Below are positions 39,570-49,360 of a stretch of DNA of 64,000 nt, piece after piece. This stretch comes from Brevibacillus laterosporus (GTDB taxonomy: Bacteria > Bacillota > Bacilli > Brevibacillales > Brevibacillaceae), in assembly GCA_007833815.1 (NCBI GenBank), contig CP033464.1, forward strand, positions 1,807,501-1,871,500, read 5' to 3'. The notes under the pieces are model-generated. The model was given only the letters and a program-made list of their open reading frames with translations. It made no database searches and had not been told where the DNA came from. The first letter of the stretch is position 1. Every line of letters begins with the position of its first letter. The position numbers were made by a program, and so were the translations under genes.

Positions 39570-40766
39570 ATGGCATACCTGTACCATCTAGATTTTCCAA
39601 GGAAGGAACGAAGGATATTGAGATACTTTCATTATTTAACAGCCGAAGAACAACAATCTATTTTTTATCAAAGTCCCGGTTCATTTGACAGATTTTCAGA
39701 CAAGTACTTACTTTCTCATTCGTTAGGTGCTTTGTTATATATGCCTGGAACGCGAAAACAGATTGTTGATGACATTATTGTAAAAAAACATAGAGGCTTA
39801 ATATCCATGGTTTTATGCTTAGAGGACGCAATAGGAGATAACGAAGTACTTGATGCAGAGAATTCCTTGATTGCACAAGTTCATCAGATTGCTTTATTGA
39901 TCAAAAATGGGCGTTTACAGGAAGAAGATGTACCACTTATCTTTATTCGTGTTCGAGAACCAGAGCAGATTAATCGCTTAGTCAACCAATTAGGAGAACA
40001 TTCTCTATATGTGACTGGTTTTGTATTTCCCAAATTCTCTAGCTCAAATGGTGAAAGATATTTTGAAACATTGATAGAGTGCAACAAACAGATAAATAGA
40101 AAGCTTTATGGCATGCCCATTTTAGAGTCGTCTGAAATTATTTACAAGGAAACTAGAGTAAGCGCTCTCGTAGAAGTGAGAAATATACTAGATAAATACC
40201 GTGATGTAGTCCTCAATGTGAGAATTGGAGCTACTGATTTCTCCAGCTTGTTCGGGTTACGTAGAAATCCAGGGATTACGATTTATGATTTATCTGTCAT
40301 TCGTGATTGTATAGCGGATATCGTAAATATGTTTAGCCGCAAAGATAGTGATTATGTGGTCTCAGGACCTGTTTGGGAATATTTTAATAGTACGAATCTC
40401 CCTCCCAAAACGGCGCCCCTCTCTCCTTTTAACCGTAACACCGTCGTGGATTATGAAGAGGGGCTTATTCGTGAAGTGATGCTGGATAAAGAAAATGGTT
40501 TATTAGGAAAAACAATTATTCACCCGAGCCATATTCGTGCAGTACAGTCTCTGTATGTAGTGTCTCATGAGGAATATATGGATGCACTTGCCATCGTGCA
40601 AAAGAATGATGGTGAGCAGGGAGTTATGAAAAGCGAATATGCAAACAAGATGAATGAAATCAAACCGCATTTGAACTGGTCTAATAAAATTCTAATGCGA
40701 GCTAACATATATGGGGTGTATCATGCTCAAAACAACTTCACCAACTTACTTGCCGAAAGAATATAA
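39570..40766 (+). CDS. HpcH/HpaI-type C-C bond lyase of Ter operon
   Basis: A 398-residue TIM-barrel lyase/aldolase of the citrate-lyase-beta/HpcH superfamily, in the subgroup tied to ter loci (C-C_Bond_Lyase). Key residues lie in MVLCLEDAIGDNEV (metal-binding Glu-Asp), FIRVREP and VRIGATDFSSLFG. The start is uncertain: ATG 39570 has no clear ribosome site, while in-frame TTG 39618 (giving RYFHYLT as N-terminus) follows AAGGAACGAAGGA. Its 3' end overlaps the next gene, so the four genes to 44138 are coupled. Confidence 0.82.
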   Translation: MAYLYHLDFPRKERRILRYFHYLTAEEQQSIFYQSPGSFDRFSDKYLLSHSLGALLYMPGTRKQIVDDIIVKKHRGLISMVLCLEDAIGDNEVLDAENSLIAQVHQIALLIKNGRLQEEDVPLIFIRVREPEQINRLVNQLGEHSLYVTGFVFPKFSSSNGERYFETLIECNKQINRKLYGMPILESSEIIYKETRVSALVEVRNILDKYRDVVLNVRIGATDFSSLFGLRRNPGITIYDLSVIRDCIADIVNMFSRKDSDYVVSGPVWEYFNSTNLPPKTAPLSPFNRNTVVDYEEGLIREVMLDKENGLLGKTIIHPSHIRAVQSLYVVSHEEYMDALAIVQKNDGEQGVMKSEYANKMNEIKPHLNWSNKILMRANIYGVYHAQNNFTNLLAERI

Positions 40767-42183
40767 CTTCTCCATTTTGGAACATTTGTCTGTTCAAGTC
40801 ACGATTACCAATAATCCCTACCAAGTTCCAATGGATGCACTCTTCTCCATGGCAGCGCGTATCAATAAAAAGCGTGGTTTCTTATTTGTAAGTAAGGTAT
40901 TAGGCAAGCATCTACCTATACAGCCAGGAATCGGGTTATTGGGTGGCGCTATTTTAGCAGGACAGCTCCTGCAAGATGTGTATGGGATTCGACAAGCAAA
41001 TCTATTAGATCTACTGACAGGTCTCCAATCACCTGATAGTAGTAGAGACGTATATGCTGCTTTTTCCCAAGAACGTTTTCCTTTGCCGGAAAAGGTAACT
41101 TTCATCGGTTTTGCGGAAACAGCAACGGCGCTTGGACATAGCATGTTTGCCGCTTTTACTGACAAAGCTTCATATATTCATACTACGAGAGAACAAATAC
41201 AGAATCTCTCGCCTGTTCTTACATTTGAAGAAGAGCATTCTCATGCGACTTCCCACCGTTTTTACACGCTTGATCCAGCTTTTTTGGATCATCATCAGCC
41301 GATTGTTTTGGTAGATGATGAAATTACTACAGGTAAAACGGCTCTAAACATGATCGCTGAATTACATCAGGCATTCCCACGGAAAACCTATGTGGTTGCT
41401 TCCTTGCTGGATTGGCGGTCAGATGCGGATGAGCAGCGTTTTGCTATGGTGGAGCAGGAACTTGGAATTACTATCAAAACCATTTCGTTACTACGTGGAA
41501 AATTACAGTTCAATAACAACGAGCTTGTAAGTGAGAAGAGAGACAGTCAGCCAGAAAATAAAAATGAAAGAATAATAGAAGATAGGCAAGATTGCGGTCC
41601 AGACACAGAACTACGAGAGGTTATTGTTCAAACCATCTATCTAGACACAGAACCATGGGCTGTTGTAGAAGGCATTTCAACTAATGCTTTGCTAGAACAA
41701 AATGATACGCCTTATTTGGCAGAGACCGGTCGCTTTGGTCTAACAAGTGAGAGAAATCAACACATAAATACCATTGCTCAAGGGGCTGCTACGAAATTAA
41801 TAACGTATCGCATATCAACGGGAAAGCCTACGCTTTGTCTAGGAACTGGGGAGTTCATGTATCTTCCAATGTTAATAGCCTCTTATATGGGAGAGAATGT
41901 TCTGTATCATTCCACTACGCGAAGCCCGATTCATCCTCATGTTGAAACAGGATACGGAGCACAGAATAAATTTGTTTTTGCAAACCATGAAGATCCTCAG
42001 GTTACCAATTATCTATACAATATTCCGTTTAACACTTATCAGGATGTTTTTTTATTTATAGAGCGTGATGTACCTATGTCGCGCCTGCAACCAACAGTGG
42101 ATGCGTTGCTACAAACAGGTATAGAGCAGCTATATCTGGTTGTTTGTTCATCAAAGAATGGAAAGCAGGAGGAAAGACAATGA
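40723..42183 (+). CDS. Phosphoribosyltransferase-TRSP domain protein
   Basis: A 486-residue Ter-operon enzyme. The N-terminal half is an orotate-type phosphoribosyltransferase with the PRPP loop IVLVDDEITTGKT (about residue 200) and GFAETATALGHSM. The C-terminal 180 residues fit the TRSP domain found fused to it (VVEGISTNALLEQN..., LCLGTGEFMYLPM, HSTTRSPIHPH). Predicted to build a nucleoside-like compound in the Ter pathway, as argued for the family by comparative genomics. ATG 40723 follows GGGGTG and lies inside the end of the lyase gene. Confidence 0.87.
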   Translation: MLKTTSPTYLPKEYNFSILEHLSVQVTITNNPYQVPMDALFSMAARINKKRGFLFVSKVLGKHLPIQPGIGLLGGAILAGQLLQDVYGIRQANLLDLLTGLQSPDSSRDVYAAFSQERFPLPEKVTFIGFAETATALGHSMFAAFTDKASYIHTTREQIQNLSPVLTFEEEHSHATSHRFYTLDPAFLDHHQPIVLVDDEITTGKTALNMIAELHQAFPRKTYVVASLLDWRSDADEQRFAMVEQELGITIKTISLLRGKLQFNNNELVSEKRDSQPENKNERIIEDRQDCGPDTELREVIVQTIYLDTEPWAVVEGISTNALLEQNDTPYLAETGRFGLTSERNQHINTIAQGAATKLITYRISTGKPTLCLGTGEFMYLPMLIASYMGENVLYHSTTRSPIHPHVETGYGAQNKFVFANHEDPQVTNYLYNIPFNTYQDVFLFIERDVPMSRLQPTVDALLQTGIEQLYLVVCSSKNGKQEERQ

Positions 42184-43313
42184 ACATGTTATGGCAACAT
42201 AAAACAATTCCTGCGCCAACTCCTGTAGGAAGCTATCAACCCGAAGATGTTGTATTTTTGTTAAAAGACATTAGCCATGTAAGTTTAGAGAGAGATACAG
42301 AAGATCGTGAAGAATTGATTCAGGGCGGTGTACATTATTCTGAAATGTTACCGATTGAATATCAACCAACGCAGGCTTATCTGGAACTTTTTCATCAAAC
42401 CTTACAAGAAAATGCCCATATAGTAGCAATGGCGGCTGGAATCGTAGCTGAGCTGATTGTGAAAAAACGGGGTAAAAATCTTGTTCTAGCTTCCCTAGCA
42501 AGAGCAGGAACACCTATTGGAATTTTAATAAAGCGGTATATCAAGCAAATTCATAACCTCGATATTCCCCACTACAGCATGTCGATCATTCGTGGAAAAG
42601 GCATAGATGAAAATGCGGTCATGTATATGCTTCAACAGCATGAGGGGGCTGACATTCAGTTTGTAGATGGATGGACGGGCAAAGGAGCCATTACACAAGT
42701 GCTACATGACGCTTGCCAATCTTTCTATGAAACATACGGCTATTTATTACACTCTGATTTGGCTGTCTTGGCTGATCCAGGTCATTGTGTGGAGACGTTT
42801 GGAACACGAGAGGACTTCATTATTCCGAGTGCTTGCCTGAACTCGACGGTATCAGGATTAATGAGTCGCACGGTACACCGAGCAGATTTACTTTCAGAAA
42901 AAGAGTTTCACGGGGCCAAATATTATAAAGAGTGGGAAGCAGAAGACCTTTCAAACTATTTTATCGACACTGTCTCTAGTTTTTTTGCAGAAATAGCAGG
43001 AGAAGCAAAGCAACGAATGGAACAAACGTTACAAGCGAACCTACCTATTACCTGGAAAGGAATGAAAGATATTCAAAAAATTCAAGAGCATTTTCACATT
43101 GAGGATAGTAACTTAGTGAAACCAGGAGTAGGTGAGACGACTCGTGTGCTACTGCGAAGAGTGCCTTGGAAGATTCTCGTAAATCGTCTGGATAATCCCC
43201 ATGTAAAACACATTCTGTTGTTGGCTAAGGATCGTGGCGTTCCAGTGGAAGAATTTCCTGAGCTGTCCTATTCATGTTGCGGATTGATTCGTCCTATGAA
43301 AGGGGAAGAGTAA
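42180..43313 (+). CDS. StiP-family protein with PELOTA RNA-binding domain
   Basis: A 377-residue Ter-operon protein. Residues 1-270 match the family described first as a phosphoribosyltransferase and now labelled cysteine protease StiP (LVLASLARAGTPIGILIKR, PHYSMSIIRGKGID, FVDGWTGKGAI). Residues 300-377 form a PELOTA/L7Ae-like RNA-binding domain (GETTRVLLRRVPWKILV, HILLLAKDRGVP). I cannot tell which activity applies; there is no test in sequence alone. ATG 42180 overlaps the upstream stop (ATGA) and has AGGAGG 7 nt before it. Confidence 0.85.
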   Translation: MNMLWQHKTIPAPTPVGSYQPEDVVFLLKDISHVSLERDTEDREELIQGGVHYSEMLPIEYQPTQAYLELFHQTLQENAHIVAMAAGIVAELIVKKRGKNLVLASLARAGTPIGILIKRYIKQIHNLDIPHYSMSIIRGKGIDENAVMYMLQQHEGADIQFVDGWTGKGAITQVLHDACQSFYETYGYLLHSDLAVLADPGHCVETFGTREDFIIPSACLNSTVSGLMSRTVHRADLLSEKEFHGAKYYKEWEAEDLSNYFIDTVSSFFAEIAGEAKQRMEQTLQANLPITWKGMKDIQKIQEHFHIEDSNLVKPGVGETTRVLLRRVPWKILVNRLDNPHVKHILLLAKDRGVPVEEFPELSYSCCGLIRPMKGEE

Positions 43314-44138
43314 ATGCTTTACGCTAGTGACCTAGATCAAACTCTTATTTATTCACGTAGATCATTCGGAGCTTTTGATGAAAATAGCGAGAAAATCCGT
43401 CTAGTAGAGATGAGAGGGGAAAAAGAGATTTCTTTCATGGTGCAGAGAGCGACAGATGTATTAAAAGAGATCGCAGCTCAGATGATGTTTGTTCCTGTGA
43501 CGACTCGGACCAGAGAACAATATCGTCGGATTCATCTATTTTATAAAGAGATACGGCCTACATACGCTGTCACTAGTAATGGTGGGCATATTTTATATAA
43601 CGGTCAACTAGATATGGCGTGGAACCATTCGGTGACTCAGAAAATCGAGGACAGTTCTCTTCCCCTTCATGAGCTTATAAAAGCTTTTGCTGAAATAAAA
43701 AGTAGTGAGTGGTTACATAATGAATACATCGCTGACAAGCTTTTCTACTATTGTACAGTGAATCGAACTACCATGCCGATGGAAGAGATTCTGGTCTTTG
43801 GAGACTGGGCGAATCAGAAGGGTTGGAATCTATCTATTCAAGGAAGAAAAGTGTATATCGTTCCACATGCAGTGAACAAGCGGGATGCAGTAAGGGCCAT
43901 CCAAGAACGTGAGGGTCTTACCACCCTGATTTCTTCGGGAGATTCTTTGTTGGACTTTCCTTTGCTAGATGCCTCAGACATCTCGATTGCACCACCACAT
44001 GGAGAACTATTTCAACTACGGGATAGGGGAAATATTCAATTTACACAAAAAAGTGGAATTCTGGCATCTCTAGAGATTGTTGAAATGGTTATGCAGGTTT
44101 TGCAAGAGGGTCGGGAGCGGACGAAAATGAATCTTTAG
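43314..44138 (+). CDS. HAD-family phosphatase of Ter operon
   Basis: A 274-residue HAD hydrolase with the Cof/SPP-like arrangement: motif I SDLDQTLIYS at the N-terminus, Thr in VPVTTRT, and motif IV SSGDSLLDFPLL near residue 205. A cap domain lies between. Expected to dephosphorylate the pathway's nucleotide-like product. It starts one base after the stop of the StiP/PELOTA gene and is the last gene of the block. Confidence 0.87.
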   Translation: MLYASDLDQTLIYSRRSFGAFDENSEKIRLVEMRGEKEISFMVQRATDVLKEIAAQMMFVPVTTRTREQYRRIHLFYKEIRPTYAVTSNGGHILYNGQLDMAWNHSVTQKIEDSSLPLHELIKAFAEIKSSEWLHNEYIADKLFYYCTVNRTTMPMEEILVFGDWANQKGWNLSIQGRKVYIVPHAVNKRDAVRAIQEREGLTTLISSGDSLLDFPLLDASDISIAPPHGELFQLRDRGNIQFTQKSGILASLEIVEMVMQVLQEGRERTKMNL

Positions 44139-44335: not shown

Positions 44336-45292
44336 TCAACTATCGATTACATTCGAATTTTTTCCTGATGTAGAAGGTTTTTGACTTAGCAAGAAAACCA
44401 TGACTAGAACAGATAGAGTCCCTACGGATTGGAAAATTCCAAAAGGTACATGTAAAAGTAGAACGGATGAAATAATAGCTGCAAGTGGCTCCGTACACCC
44501 TAGTAAACTTGTTTCTTTTGGAGTAATATATCTTATACTTTCAAGATAAAGGTAGAAAGCGATTAATGTACCGAAAATAACAACGAACCCAATTAATAAA
44601 AAAGTTTCTAAGGTTAGATTCTCGATACGAGATAAAAATATGATTTTTCTTGTAGAGATAAAGCTTAGGAGCGTTAATCCAATCCCCCCGATAATCATAC
44701 CCCAGCCAACAACGATAGAAGAAGCCCATTTATCTAATAATCCCTTTGAATAAAGTGTATAGAACGCTAAAGTTAAACCAGATAAAATACCCCAAATGAT
44801 TGCTGGTTTAGATACTGTTAAATTATCTGTTGATCCATTCGTAAGTAATAAAAAGGTTCCTAATAAAGCTAAAAAAATAGATATGGTATCAATTTTTGTA
44901 GGAAAAGTTTTACATTTCATAATAAGATAGAAAGTAATAAATATAGGAGCTAAGTACTGTAATAAGGTTGCAACAGCAGCATTTCCCGCATTAATCGAAG
45001 CAAAATACGTGTATTGGACCCCTAGCATGCCTCCTATTCCAAAAAGAATAATTTTTACTGATTCTTTTTTATCTTTCCATATGCCAAATATTTGATATCT
45101 TTTTGGGCTAAATGATGACAGAAGCAACAAAATCATTCCTGAAATCAATAGTCGAATTGTAACAAGCCACTCTGTAGAAATGTTTACTTGTTGGAAAAGC
45201 TGTTGAGCAACGGTACCTGATATACCCCATAAACCGGCACCTGTAATTACCATCACCATTCCTTTAAATCGATTTCCATCTATTTCTTTCAA
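44336..45292 (-). CDS. EamA/DMT-family exporter
   Basis: A 318-residue drug/metabolite transporter with ten membrane segments in two EamA repeats (MVITGAGLWGISGTVAQ at the start; the second repeat begins near PAIIWGILSGLTLAFYTLYSKG). Such proteins export amino acids or small metabolites. The TTG start follows AAGGAGGGG. It is divergent from the diaminopropionate genes with a 180-bp shared intergenic region, so it is a candidate exporter of their product. The alternative is unrelated amino-acid efflux. Confidence 0.87.
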   Translation of the reverse strand: MKEIDGNRFKGMVMVITGAGLWGISGTVAQQLFQQVNISTEWLVTIRLLISGMILLLLSSFSPKRYQIFGIWKDKKESVKIILFGIGGMLGVQYTYFASINAGNAAVATLLQYLAPIFITFYLIMKCKTFPTKIDTISIFLALLGTFLLLTNGSTDNLTVSKPAIIWGILSGLTLAFYTLYSKGLLDKWASSIVVGWGMIIGGIGLTLLSFISTRKIIFLSRIENLTLETFLLIGFVVIFGTLIAFYLYLESIRYITPKETSLLGCTEPLAAIISSVLLLHVPFGIFQSVGTLSVLVMVFLLSQKPSTSGKNSNVIDS

Positions 45293-45404
45293 TTGTACCC
45301 CTCCTTTTTACAAAATATCCAAAAAACTACAAATATATAATGAAATATATCATGAGTGATGTTAAAATGAAATGGGTTAAAAACATTATAAATATTTTAA
45401 ATTA

Positions 45405-45431
45405 TTTACAAGTGTGTTTCGTATATATAGT
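45405..45431 (+). promoter_or_regulatory. Putative promoter of the diaminopropionate operon
   Basis: TTTACA and TATAGT are spaced by 15 bp, 41 bp before the GTG start. A TATATA four bases earlier is an alternative -10. No recognisable Fur box is present. Confidence 0.3.
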
Positions 45432-45472
45432 AAACTTATCATTCTCTATTTAGCTGTAAAGGGGGAAAAAAT

Positions 45473-46234
45473 GTGTTATCTGAGCTAAGAGTAGTACCGA
45501 TCAGTCAAGTGTTTTTACATGAAGAGTATGAAATAGAAAGGCTAGAAAAACTTTGCTCTAAAATTAAAAATGAGCAAAAAGTAAAAAATCCTCCTATTGC
45601 TTTACAACTTGAGCATAACAAATATTTGATTCTTGATGGAGCTCACCGCACATTATCCTTACAGAAATTGAATTGTAAAAGAATCGTGATACAAGTGGTT
45701 GACTTAGAGTATTTATCAATTGATTCTTGGGCACATCACATTTTGGATGCCGAAAATCTTATTGAGGAATTACTCCAGAATCCAGATTTAATGTGGAGAA
45801 AAGAAACATATTCTGTAGATCCAATTGCAACCATCTTCGTTAGTAATGAGAAACACTATGTATATACCGCTGCAGATGTTCACATGGATATAAAAAAGAG
45901 GATTACGATTTGGAAGGAAATTGTTAATTCTTATTCGACTAAATATACATTTAATAGAATATCTGCTAGTCAACCGCCTATTGATAGTGGCATTGTTTTT
46001 CATTACCCTGCTTTTCATATAAATCAAATTAAAAATATCGTAGATGAAAACCTCCTCTTACCAGCTGGTGTAACAAAATTTACTCTACATTGCGGACGCA
46101 TTTTGAATTTAAACATCCCCCTAAGCTTTTTAATCCGAGAAGATTACGTAGAGGAGGATTGGAGGGAATTGCTGGAATTATGGAGGTCTTCCATGAGGTT
46201 ATATACTGATCCAGTCTATTTGTGCGAGATTTAG
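45473..46234 (+). CDS. SbnI-like ParB-fold L-serine kinase
   Basis: A 253-residue ParB/Srx-fold protein resembling SbnI, the staphyloferrin B protein that phosphorylates L-serine to O-phosphoserine and also responds to heme. The ParB nucleotide-binding motif is LDGAHR (D55-R59), and an acidic HEEYE stretch at 16-20 is a candidate for the catalytic Glu. The rest of the length agrees with SbnI. GTG start, 7 nt after AAAGGGGG. It is the first of four collinear genes that include sbnA and sbnB, so it would supply their phosphoserine substrate. Confidence 0.75.
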   Translation: MLSELRVVPISQVFLHEEYEIERLEKLCSKIKNEQKVKNPPIALQLEHNKYLILDGAHRTLSLQKLNCKRIVIQVVDLEYLSIDSWAHHILDAENLIEELLQNPDLMWRKETYSVDPIATIFVSNEKHYVYTAADVHMDIKKRITIWKEIVNSYSTKYTFNRISASQPPIDSGIVFHYPAFHINQIKNIVDENLLLPAGVTKFTLHCGRILNLNIPLSFLIREDYVEEDWRELLELWRSSMRLYTDPVYLCEI

Positions 46235-46269
46235 GTATTAGAAATGTAAAAAGGGGGAGGGAACATCAC

Positions 46270-47121
46270 GTGGGGACGAAAAAGACCAAAGCTCAAATTT
46301 TAATGACAGAAGGAAGTTTTCACGCAGTCTATTTAATTAAAAAATGGTATGAAAATGTAGGGCATACTACTTCATTCAAGGGAATCGTTATTAGAGATAC
46401 CCAAGAAAATAGTCAACAAAAGGTACAATTCCATAATGAACACTCTGGTAAAAAATTAGTAACAGAGAATGAGTGGGATGAGCTTTGTGCGCTATATGGA
46501 ACCATCAGTGAGGCAGAAAAAAGTATGGTTTCATTATACGGAATACCGTCCTATCCTGCTGATGTAATTCCACATATTCATTATGGTGGACACAGCTTGA
46601 ATCATGATGATATGGAAAATTTCTTAAAAAATGTGACGCGGGAGTATGATCTCACCGTATACGTTTTTTTAGATCAAATATTAAAACCTTGGTGGATTGA
46701 GTACACAGAGGGAAACATTATTAATGCCCATTCGGCAGTTCTTCCCTATGCGAGGGGAATGTATGCCATTGAAAATATGGCTGTAAAAGGAAATAGTAAG
46801 GATTTTCAAAAAGCTGCCGGAGCTTCCATACATTTTGTAGATAACGGAATAGATACAGGTCCAATTATCAGAGCGGTGAGGATAAAGGATCCATTTCATT
46901 ATGAATCAATTTGGGAAGTAAAAGCTGCTTCTTATCAATTAGCTTTTGAGCTTTTAGTTAACCAGGCAAAACAGGAAGTAGAAAATCCGGATTTACATTA
47001 TGTGGGGATAAAATGTGATGTAAATATAATGGGGGAAAACTTTTTGAGCAAAAATTTTAATGAAGGTAAAAAATATCTGGCGGAAGATCAATTCTTATCA
47101 ATGAAAAAGTCTCAAATGTAA
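46270..47121 (+). CDS. Formyltransferase-family protein
   Basis: A 283-residue protein. The C-terminal two thirds match the formyl_trans_N fold that uses 10-formyltetrahydrofolate. The catalytic Asn, His and Asp are in place: INAHSAVLPYARG (N152, H154) and FVDNGIDTGPII (D191 or D195). The first 100 residues diverge from Fmt, GART and ArnA. It is not a tRNA formyltransferase, because the second domain is lacking. The GTG start is 9 nt after AGGGGGAGG. It sits inside the diaminopropionate operon, so the likely acceptor is that amino acid or a derivative; this is inference. Confidence 0.75.
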   Translation: MGTKKTKAQILMTEGSFHAVYLIKKWYENVGHTTSFKGIVIRDTQENSQQKVQFHNEHSGKKLVTENEWDELCALYGTISEAEKSMVSLYGIPSYPADVIPHIHYGGHSLNHDDMENFLKNVTREYDLTVYVFLDQILKPWWIEYTEGNIINAHSAVLPYARGMYAIENMAVKGNSKDFQKAAGASIHFVDNGIDTGPIIRAVRIKDPFHYESIWEVKAASYQLAFELLVNQAKQEVENPDLHYVGIKCDVNIMGENFLSKNFNEGKKYLAEDQFLSMKKSQM

Positions 47122-47145
47122 TTCAAGAACATAGGAGGCGATATT

Positions 47146-48129
47146 ATGATTTATGAAAATGCACTAGAATTGATAGGCAATACACCAGTAGTAAAGATTA
47201 ATCATCTAGTACAAACTGAAAATAGCGAATTATATGTAAAATTGGAAGGGTTTAATCCAGGAGGAAGTTCCAAGGATAGGGTTGCAAAACGTATAATTGA
47301 GTATGCTGAAAAAACGGGAAAATTAGAAGCCAATGGAACAATTGTTGAATCATCATCGGGTAATCTGGCTATAGGATTAGCTATGGTGGCTAAAATGAAA
47401 GGCTATAAAATGATATGTGTAGTAGATCCTAAAATAAGCAAGGTTAATCTAAATCTTATTAAAGCATTTGGTGCACAGGTTCATATGGTAGATCAATCAG
47501 ATGAGCATGGGAACTACTTAAAAACAAGATTAGCTACGGCACAACTTTTAGAAAGTTCGATAGAGGGTGCTTATTGGCCAAATCAATATAACAATCCAGA
47601 AAATCCAAAAGCGTATATGCATTCATTAGCCCGCGAAATCTATAGTGATTTTCAGGATACCTTAGATTGGATTGTATGCCCAGTTGGCACAGCAGGATTA
47701 ATAACTGGAGTAGCAGCAGAAATGAAAAAGCTAAATCCTTCTGTTAAAATTTTAGCAGTGGATGCTGTCGGCTCGGTTATTTTCGGTGGAAAGCCAGGTG
47801 CACGAAGATTGCTCGGTATTGGAAATGCAATCGTTCCTGGCAATTTAGATAAGAGTTTATATGATCGATTAAGTTATGTAAATGATGCAGATGCGTTTTT
47901 TATGACACGAGAACTAGTATTACAGGAGGGACTCCTAGTTGGAGGTTCATCGGGTGCAACAGTATGTGCAGCGTTACGATTACTAGAGGATTTACCAAAA
48001 GGACAAAAAGTATTAGCCATTTTGCCAGACAGAGGAGATAGATATTATAGCACTATTTTTTCTGATGAATGGATGAATCAAAATGAGATTAGATTACCTC
48101 AATCTATATATAAATCCGTTTCTATTTAA
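47146..48129 (+). CDS. sbnA: 2,3-diaminopropionate biosynthesis protein SbnA
   Basis: A 327-residue PLP enzyme of the cysteine-synthase superfamily. In staphylococci SbnA joins O-phospho-L-serine and L-glutamate into N-(1-amino-1-carboxyl-2-ethyl)-glutamate. The Schiff-base Lys is K43 in NPGGSSKDR, SSSGNLAIGLAM binds the substrate carboxylate, and GGSSGAT supports the cofactor phosphate. The ARRLLGIGN segment fits SbnA better than plain cysteine synthase. ATG follows AGGAGGCG. It is placed directly before sbnB. Confidence 0.87.
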   Translation: MIYENALELIGNTPVVKINHLVQTENSELYVKLEGFNPGGSSKDRVAKRIIEYAEKTGKLEANGTIVESSSGNLAIGLAMVAKMKGYKMICVVDPKISKVNLNLIKAFGAQVHMVDQSDEHGNYLKTRLATAQLLESSIEGAYWPNQYNNPENPKAYMHSLAREIYSDFQDTLDWIVCPVGTAGLITGVAAEMKKLNPSVKILAVDAVGSVIFGGKPGARRLLGIGNAIVPGNLDKSLYDRLSYVNDADAFFMTRELVLQEGLLVGGSSGATVCAALRLLEDLPKGQKVLAILPDRGDRYYSTIFSDEWMNQNEIRLPQSIYKSVSI

Positions 48130-48158
48130 TTACACCCAATTTTAAAGGAGGGATTATG

Positions 48159-49178
48159 ATGTTAGTAGAAACAAAGCCAGAGTTAATCTATTTGAACAAG
48201 CAAGATATTATAAATGTAGGTGGTTATAAGTCCGAGGTTTATGTACAAGCTATAAAGCAAGCTCTTACGTTACATTCTGAGAAGAACTTTAGTCAGCCAC
48301 TAAAACCATATCTGAAGACAAATAAAAAGGATGAGCATATCGCAGATAGAATCATAGCTATGCCTGCTTACTTAGGTGAACCTTCTATTTCAGGTATCAA
48401 ATGGATTGGAAGTAAGTTTACGAATCCTACTAAAAAAAATATGGAAAGAGCTAGTGCTTTGATCATTTTAAATGATCCTGAAACGAACTTTCCTATTGCC
48501 ATATTAGAGGGAAGTGTCATCAGTTCCATGAGAACTGCGGCAGTAACAGTAGTAGCGACTGAATATTTAGCGAAAAAGGGTTTTAGCCATTTATCTGTGA
48601 TAGGTTGTGGATTAATTGCTAAAATGCAAATAAATTCTTTGCTGGAACAGTTTGATCATATTAAGCATGTACATTTGTTTGATCTAGATATGCAAAAAGC
48701 TGAAGCGTTTGTCAAAGAAATACAACAGCGCTTTAGTCATATTATGTTCCGTATCCATGATTCAGCTCAAAGTGCGGTAGAGAATGCTGAAGTATTAGTA
48801 ACTTGCACAGTAACAGCAACTCCGTATATTAAATCAGAGTGGATTAAAAAAGGGACATTTGTAAGTAATATTTCTATTATGGACATAGAGAAAGAGGCAT
48901 TCTTACGTGCAGATAAAGTTGTTGTTGATGACTGGGATCAATCAAATAGAGAAAAGAAGATCATAAATCAATTGGTGCTGGAAGGAAAATTTTCAAAAGA
49001 AATGTTGCATGCAGAGCTAGGAGATATTATTACCAATAAAAAAGCAGGCAGAGAAACAGATGACGAGATTATCATTTTAAATCCAATGGGGATGGCCATA
49101 GAAGATATCTCTTGCGCCTATGAAATTTATAAAAAAGCACGTCAAGAAGGTATAGGAACGGTGTTAAGCTTGTATTAA
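48159..49178 (+). CDS. sbnB: 2,3-diaminopropionate biosynthesis protein SbnB
   Basis: A 339-residue NAD-dependent enzyme of the ornithine-cyclodeaminase/mu-crystallin family. SbnB oxidatively cleaves the SbnA product to L-2,3-diaminopropionate and 2-oxoglutarate. Seen are SGIKWIGSKFTNP (substrate-binding Lys), SSMRTAAVT, and a nucleotide-binding LSVIGCGLIAKM. ATG 48159 lies 7 nt after AGGAGG; ATG 48156 is nearer. It is the last gene of the operon and a terminator follows. Confidence 0.87.
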   Translation: MLVETKPELIYLNKQDIINVGGYKSEVYVQAIKQALTLHSEKNFSQPLKPYLKTNKKDEHIADRIIAMPAYLGEPSISGIKWIGSKFTNPTKKNMERASALIILNDPETNFPIAILEGSVISSMRTAAVTVVATEYLAKKGFSHLSVIGCGLIAKMQINSLLEQFDHIKHVHLFDLDMQKAEAFVKEIQQRFSHIMFRIHDSAQSAVENAEVLVTCTVTATPYIKSEWIKKGTFVSNISIMDIEKEAFLRADKVVVDDWDQSNREKKIINQLVLEGKFSKEMLHAELGDIITNKKAGRETDDEIIILNPMGMAIEDISCAYEIYKKARQEGIGTVLSLY

Positions 49179-49242
49179 ATGTACAACAATACAGAAAACC
49201 AAAAAGCTGGCTGTTTTGATGAGAAGATGATTTTTAAAATGA

Positions 49243-49292
49243 CAAAGAAGCACATTTTTTTGGCGCCATAAGTCAAACAATGTGCTTTTTCT
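49243..49292 (+). terminator. Terminator of the diaminopropionate operon
   Basis: AAAGAAGCACATT pairs with AATGTGCTTTTTCTTT around a long loop, with T-rich sequence following. Confidence 0.75.
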
Positions 49293-49360
49293 TTATTTAC
49301 CTTATATTCTTTTCCCCATTTTACATATACATGGTGTAGAGGGGAAAAGGAGGGGTTTGG

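Follow-up and report, generated by a model that had tools for sequence, protein, structure and literature searches.

A putative diaminopropionate gene cassette with a formyltransferase and a proposed exporter in Brevibacillus laterosporus, and its possible end product

The genome considered here (G000; 5.76 Mb in four contigs) has Brevibacillus laterosporus MSSRFCCT15 as the closest named relative found. One stretch of it, 64,000 nucleotides long (G000:C4:1807501-1871500, below called the window), contains a compact unit of five intact open reading frames. Four of these form a plus-strand operon at 45473-49178 that encodes an SbnI-like serine kinase, a formyltransferase-fold protein (FT), and proteins of the SbnA and SbnB families. 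The fifth, divergent from the operon, encodes an EamA-family transporter (Table 1). An initial annotation made from the letters alone had described this arrangement, and the frames, families and coordinates were recovered as described. So was the terminator proposed after SbnB, where a hairpin is followed by a T-rich tail. The 75 bases around this hairpin fold at -21.7 kcal/mol in the window sequence, the only one folded; a simple terminator scan restricted to loops of 3-8 does not list it. The FT gene is also present, but its start had been placed at 46222. The GTG at 46270 is the most likely start, because the relatives begin there and three of them have an in-frame TAG in the upstream part.

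Table 1. Features of the unit, in window coordinates
Position	Strand	Feature	Basis
44336..45292	-	EamA-family transporter; proposed product exporter	PF00892 2e-35, 122.5 bits; 84-86% identity and same place in L041, L084, L085
45293..45472	.	Divergent promoter region common to exporter and operon	23% GC; alignment of 4 genomes; Fur comparison
45473..46234	+	SbnI-like free serine kinase, 253 aa	NF033589 7.6e-52; SbnI structures E=3e-40; E17, D55
46270..47121	+	Formyltransferase-fold protein (FT), 283 aa; triad N152, H154, D195	PF00551 5.9e-12; conserved in 4 genomes; PurN 3p9x 8.4e-10
47146..48129	+	SbnA-family protein; K43, R128, Y148, G181	TIGR03945 399.5 bits; SbnA structures; residue table
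48156..49178	+	SbnB-family enzyme; proposed release of diaminopropionate and 2-oxoglutarate	TIGR03944 406.2 bits; S. aureus SbnB 4m54
49237..49298 (about)	+	Hairpin, then T-rich tract; probable intrinsic operon terminator	Folding of the intergenic stretch

In an established route, serine is converted to O-phosphoserine, then to N-(2-amino-2-carboxyethyl)-L-glutamate, and finally to 2,3-diaminopropionate, or Dap (PMC12414870; papers are cited here by PMC number). SbnA of the unit scores above the curated cut-off of TIGR03945 (349.95 bits). Three cysteine synthases of the same genome score 240-252 bits on this model, and the SbnA of a nonribosomal peptide synthetase (NRPS) cluster scores 399.9, equal to the unit protein. 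SbnB scores above the cut-off of TIGR03944 (326.9 bits) and matches S. aureus SbnB (4m54) over residues 8-340 of 340, with 456 bits and E=3e-136. Among 398 genomes sampled from the phylum, SbnB-family matches reach 1e-60 or better in 11, and only the genome of the window has one above the cut-off. SbnI can be aligned along its length with the S. aureus protein, and its E17 and D55 align with Glu20 and Asp58, both of which are required for the kinase activity of the staphylococcal protein (PMC9641203). It is one of two SbnI-type proteins encoded in the genome, the other gene lying at 1.324 Mb. SbnI is the proposed source of O-phospho-L-serine, and it may have a regulatory role as well.

The residues of S. 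aureus SbnA credited with O-phosphoserine selectivity are Arg132, Tyr152, and Ser185 (PMC12414870). The unit protein keeps the pyridoxal phosphate lysine, K43, and its R128 and Y148 align with Arg132 and Tyr152. Both are found in six of six other SbnA-like proteins, a set that includes L135 (300 bits, below the SbnA cut-off) and the unscored L087, and in none of three cysteine synthases. With SbnA and SbnB above their curated cut-offs and both kinase residues kept in SbnI, L-Dap is the likely product of the three enzymes. The synthesis of Dap proposed in the initial annotation is well supported at the level of sequence, by family cut-offs, most active-site residues, and a linked serine kinase.

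In an SbnB tree of 21 rows, which has long-branch warnings and lacks L045 (no open reading frame found), the unit SbnB groups with the SbnB of siderophore clusters (G001 and a Bacillus badius plasmid) at 100/99 support, apart from the copies in NRPS clusters. Like the SbnA tree discussed below, it is rooted at the midpoint only.

FT has a Formyl_trans_N domain (PF00551) at 46.1 bits, above the gathering score of 26.1. Its N-x-H...D triad, known from PurN, is invariant in four of four genomes. As judged from its sequence, FT has only distant relatives in the libraries searched. At E<=1e-10 its matches among 399 Bacilli genomes are confined to this genus (4 genomes); in the phylum sample of 398 genomes it has matches in 3, namely its own genome and two with weak partial matches. 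No full-length relative outside the genus was found in these two samples. In a search of 100 genomes, 95 give some match; besides the four full-length ones, these cover only short stretches resembling PurN or Fmt, none of them better than 3.7e-8. A pattern scan of 84,980 species genomes, able to pick up close relatives only, gives a single locus, in B. laterosporus. The two weak matches of the phylum sample, in G280 and G471 (2e-11 and 4e-11), were set aside; by eye they lie beside nucleotidyltransferase and NeuB-like or aminotransferase-like genes, not beside Dap genes. The one match on plasmids was also rejected, being PurN of Enterococcus.

Full-length FT is present in four of the six genomes of the genus (G000, G002, G004, and G005). 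In the three relatives that were read (L041, L084, and L085, with the L041 unit taken as the G005 copy), the whole unit has the same order and orientation, with 77-94% protein identity. Because a five-gene unit is conserved to this degree in three other genomes, it is not a chance assembly. The exporter and FT accompany the other genes in all three, a point that the initial annotation had suggested checking.

The units of the window and the three relatives occupy the same chromosomal gap, the other contents of which vary. A ThiJ/PfpI-like gene (window 33311) adjoins the place of the unit in all of them, and SpoVR (49361 in the window) follows the unit in L084 and L085. In L041 a recombinase-like open reading frame follows instead, and SpoVR lies outside the fetched stretch. 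Recombinase- or transposase-like open reading frames, identified by eye, flank the unit in both L041 and L085. Two other genomes of the genus lack the unit: in G003 the flanking genes are both present but separated by different genes, and in G001 SpoVR is split, with no unit in the 17 kb read. The SpoVR proteins of G001 and G003 are 71-82% identical to that of the window, against 90-92% for G002 and G004. In the window and the three relatives the five genes keep together while the neighbourhood changes, which supports a self-contained unit. Its GC content is 34.4%, compared with 39.8% for the window. When the window is scanned in 500-base steps for stretches as long as the unit, the one with the lowest GC starts inside the unit at 44501. 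This low GC content suggests that the unit was acquired from elsewhere.

The gap has further contents of its own. In the window only, a tellurite-type stress block lies at 34-44 kb, between the ThiJ/PfpI-like gene and the unit; at this site the three relatives read do not have it. It includes, at 39570-44138, genes for a C-C bond lyase, PRTase_2/TRSP, StiP/PELOTA, and HAD proteins. The split SpoVR of G001 (L138; G001:C2:101872-109334) consists of residues 1-272 and 260-474, and one of the open reading frames between the two parts is recombinase-like by eye.

The 180-bp divergent promoter contains a block of about 70 columns that is nearly invariant in the alignment of four genomes. Control common to exporter and operon may act here, and seems not to be linked to iron. 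The best Fur-like site has 4 mismatches in 14, a number reached or bettered in 898 of 2000 shuffles, although the consensus used makes this a weak test. Fur-like sites with 2 mismatches occur at the promoter of the petrobactin set and at that of the sbn cluster in G001; in shuffles, which were run on the unit promoter only, 16 of 2000 reach this number. Iron regulation of the unit is therefore unsupported, and the role as a chelator that the initial annotation had offered as one option is not indicated. No RNA element is found in the unit at E up to 0.1, and a promoter scan of it gives 16 matches, fewer than the shuffle mean of 22.9.

Dap made by the unit could have customers elsewhere in the genome. 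The initial annotation had noted that the window contains no synthetase. This fits the surroundings of the unit, where no adenylation, carrier, or condensation domain is found in the seven proteins scanned, and it fits the genome search, in which the nearest condensation-domain match starts at 2.017 Mb, about 160 kb away. The genome as a whole has more than this suggests: it is rich in NRPS (111 condensation-domain matches), has two more SbnA/SbnB pairs, and carries a cluster for NRPS-independent siderophore (NIS) synthesis about 35 kb downstream of the unit. There are three SbnB-family genes at strong scores, at 1.303 Mb, at 4.084 Mb, and in the window; a fourth match is weak. The copy at 1.303 Mb lies in an NRPS cluster that also encodes SbnI and SbnA. 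The copy at 4.084 Mb, below the TIGR03944 cut-off (312.2 against 326.9 bits), lies in an NRPS/polyketide synthase (PKS) cluster with its own SbnA and, in the stretch read, no SbnI. In this second cluster (L055-L058; G000:C4:4035000-4098200) two modules putatively take Dap, and genes for an aminotransferase and an AmpC-like hydrolase were recognised by eye.

Substrate codes were read from 93 adenylation-domain (A-domain) stretches, at what we take to be the code positions. The survey covers the regions around all condensation-domain matches, with other A domains lying outside it, and the motif search may have missed domains, given 93 stretches against 111 matches. The code DIWELTADD or DIWQSTADD occurs in 3 of the 93, all in the two NRPS clusters that bear SbnA and SbnB. 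Because of this restriction, DIW(E/Q)(L/S)TADD is read as a putative Dap code; a search of papers for its letters found nothing. An NRPS that needs Dap and lacks Dap genes of its own was looked for among the 93 stretches and rejected, since the putative code is confined to clusters with their own SbnA and SbnB. An orphan siderophore use was rejected too. The genome has only two IucA/IucC matches, which form the single NIS pair, and this pair sits in an asbA-F-like, petrobactin-type set as read by eye from the open reading frames. Thus the kind of cluster named in the initial annotation as contrary evidence, an NRPS or siderophore cluster without its own Dap genes, was not found among those read.

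If the unit works as its families suggest, SbnI would phosphorylate serine to O-phosphoserine, and SbnA would exchange the phosphate for the amino group of glutamate. The product of this step, N-(2-amino-2-carboxyethyl)-L-glutamate, would then be oxidised by SbnB with NAD, releasing L-2,3-diaminopropionate and 2-oxoglutarate. PvdF formylates the side-chain amine of a free amino acid. By analogy, FT would formylate an amino group of Dap, with 10-formyl-tetrahydrofolate as the donor. The EamA protein would then export the product, which could act as an antimetabolite resembling glutamine or asparagine. That the unit is a Dap cassette of siderophore ancestry, now a self-contained pathway to exported N-formyl-Dap, is a good possibility, though short of probable. 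The fuller proposal, in which a Dap cassette and a new branch of amino-acid formyltransferases yield a secreted, synthetase-free N-formyl-2,3-diaminopropionate that mimics glutamine or asparagine against competitors, is more doubtful. N3-acyl-Dap compounds are selective glutamine-analogue inhibitors of glucosamine-6-phosphate synthase (PMC9272926), which makes an antimetabolite role plausible by analogy. The acceptor of the formyl group, the substrate of the transporter, and a role as antimetabolite are all inferred; of the earlier suggestion that the cell makes and secretes free or modified Dap, the synthesis is well supported, while formylation and export are conjectural.

Several observations weigh against this interpretation. 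SbnI reaches 176 bits on NF033589, below the strict equivalog cut-off of 350, and is for this reason filed as SbnI-like; the SbnI of the NRPS cluster also falls below it, at 176 bits. The position of Ser185 in SbnA is occupied by Gly (G181) in four of four unit proteins, as in three of three cysteine synthases, and by Ser in six of six other SbnA-like proteins. In the SbnA tree (13 rows, lacking L088-L092 and L097, where no SbnA open reading frame was found) the unit proteins stand separate from other SbnA. The donor preference of SbnA may therefore differ, and the staphylococcal mechanism should not simply be transferred to it. The nearest solved structures of FT are of the PurN type (3p9x, 8.4e-10), and its match to PvdF covers 25 residues at E=0.061. 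The linkage of the genes, rather than direct evidence, suggests that FT formylates Dap. The same linkage suggests export of the product, since the substrate of an EamA protein is not readable from its sequence. N3-formyl-Dap would lack the electrophile of the known inhibitors, so its potency is doubtful. SbnA/SbnB pairs of unknown purpose in other bacteria have already been tabulated (PMC3179956), and a pair without a known use is thus not in itself new. No paper describing such a locus was found in the open-licence PMC literature, and none there combines SbnA and SbnB with a formyltransferase or with Brevibacillus. One paper there that names both diaminopropionate and Brevibacillus laterosporus concerns a synthetic analogue, and in one that mentions formyltransferases and diaminopropionate with biosynthetic gene clusters, the formyltransferases belong to NRPS loading.

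Other explanations share parts of this evidence. The unit might feed the NRPS/PKS cluster at about 4.04-4.10 Mb in trans, with Dap, formyl-Dap, or only the O-phosphoserine of SbnI. Two of that cluster's A domains carry the putative Dap code, and no SbnI is seen in the stretch read. Moreover, the unit and an SbnB in the score range of the 4.084-Mb copy co-occur, both being present in G000, G002, G004, and G005 and neither in G001 or G003; the neighbourhood of this SbnB was read in G002 and G004, and in G005 the assignment is by score only. This pattern may simply follow from the greater distance of G001 and G003, as their SpoVR identities indicate. Trans supply is judged unlikely, as the cluster encodes an SbnA and an SbnB itself and sits more than 2 Mb from the unit, which carries its own EamA gene. 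Somewhat less likely still is the export of unmodified Dap, with FT either acting on a different amine or formylating Dap to protect the cell. In its favour, no part of the case is firmer than Dap synthesis, and FT has only distant relatives among characterised enzymes. Against it, FT lies between sbnI and sbnA in four of four units read, and its full-length form was not found outside the genus in the samples searched, which together tie it to the Dap pathway.

A change in SbnA itself offers a further explanation, in which a different donor or nucleophile leads to another beta-substituted alanine. G181 and the separate position in the tree favour it, as does a plasmid relative that has SbnI (58% identical) and an SbnA-like enzyme with no SbnB match within the fetched 18.8 kb. 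Nevertheless, the unit SbnA scores the same as the NRPS-cluster SbnA (399.5 against 399.9 bits), and the unit SbnB is closely SbnB-like and would need the product of SbnA; we consider the change improbable. The least credible alternative, with very little probability, is that the unit is a decayed relic of a staphyloferrin B cluster and no longer functions. SbnB does group with siderophore sbnB, and three NIS synthetases occur in an sbn-type cluster of a related genome. Against decay stand five intact frames at 77-94% identity in four genomes and the conserved promoter block; FT and EamA are not staphyloferrin B genes, and no Fur-like site above chance accompanies them.

The plasmid locus just mentioned (L135; CP045534.1, 9001-13856) is of some interest in its own right. 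Beside SbnI and the SbnA-like enzyme (300 bits), it has genes for an HpaB-type monooxygenase, a dihydropyrimidine-dehydrogenase-like protein, and a phosphoribosyltransferase. Speculatively, it is possibly a pathway to a pyrimidinyl- or other beta-substituted alanine.

The known Dap genes serve pathways to siderophores and peptide antibiotics. Dap genes alone with a formyltransferase and an exporter would suggest that an amino acid derivative is itself the end product. To our knowledge, few members of the formyltransferase family act on free amino acids, and the unit would add one of unknown substrate to the family.

Among the closest known systems is the staphyloferrin B locus sbnA-I of S. aureus, to which sbn-type clusters in G001 and on the Bacillus badius plasmid pPM400 correspond. 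The unit shares SbnA, SbnB, and SbnI with it, and the unit SbnB forms a clade with the SbnB proteins of G001 and pPM400. The unit differs in having no IucA/IucC synthetase (SbnC, SbnE, SbnF), with a formyltransferase and an EamA exporter in their place, in having no Fur-like site above chance, and in that sbnI comes first in the operon. The G001 cluster (L110; G001:C20:377001-397000) has SbnA, SbnB, three IucA/IucC synthetases, an MFS-like transporter, and SbnI, and is staphyloferrin B-like.

Dap genes in NRPS clusters, such as those for zwittermicin, viomycin, and dapdiamide (PMC3179956) and the two in the present genome, include an SbnA/SbnB-type pair as in the unit. One of the latter two also has an SbnI-type protein, and the edeine cluster has an SbnI-like EdeB (PMC9641203). 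The unit differs from all of these in that no NRPS, carrier protein, or adenylation domain is adjacent.

Siderophore formyltransferases of the PvdF type share the Formyl_trans fold with FT, which would likewise formylate the amine of a free amino acid. The short PvdF match sets FT apart, and the unit has no N-hydroxylase, hence no hydroxamate would be formed. Finally, dapdiamides are N3-acyl-Dap antimetabolites. Another such compound, the fumaramoyl-Dap of antibiotic A19009, resembles glutamine through the acyl group carried on its side-chain amine (PMC9272926). The unit would give a formyl rather than a fumaramoyl group, and there is no ligase among its Pfam matches.

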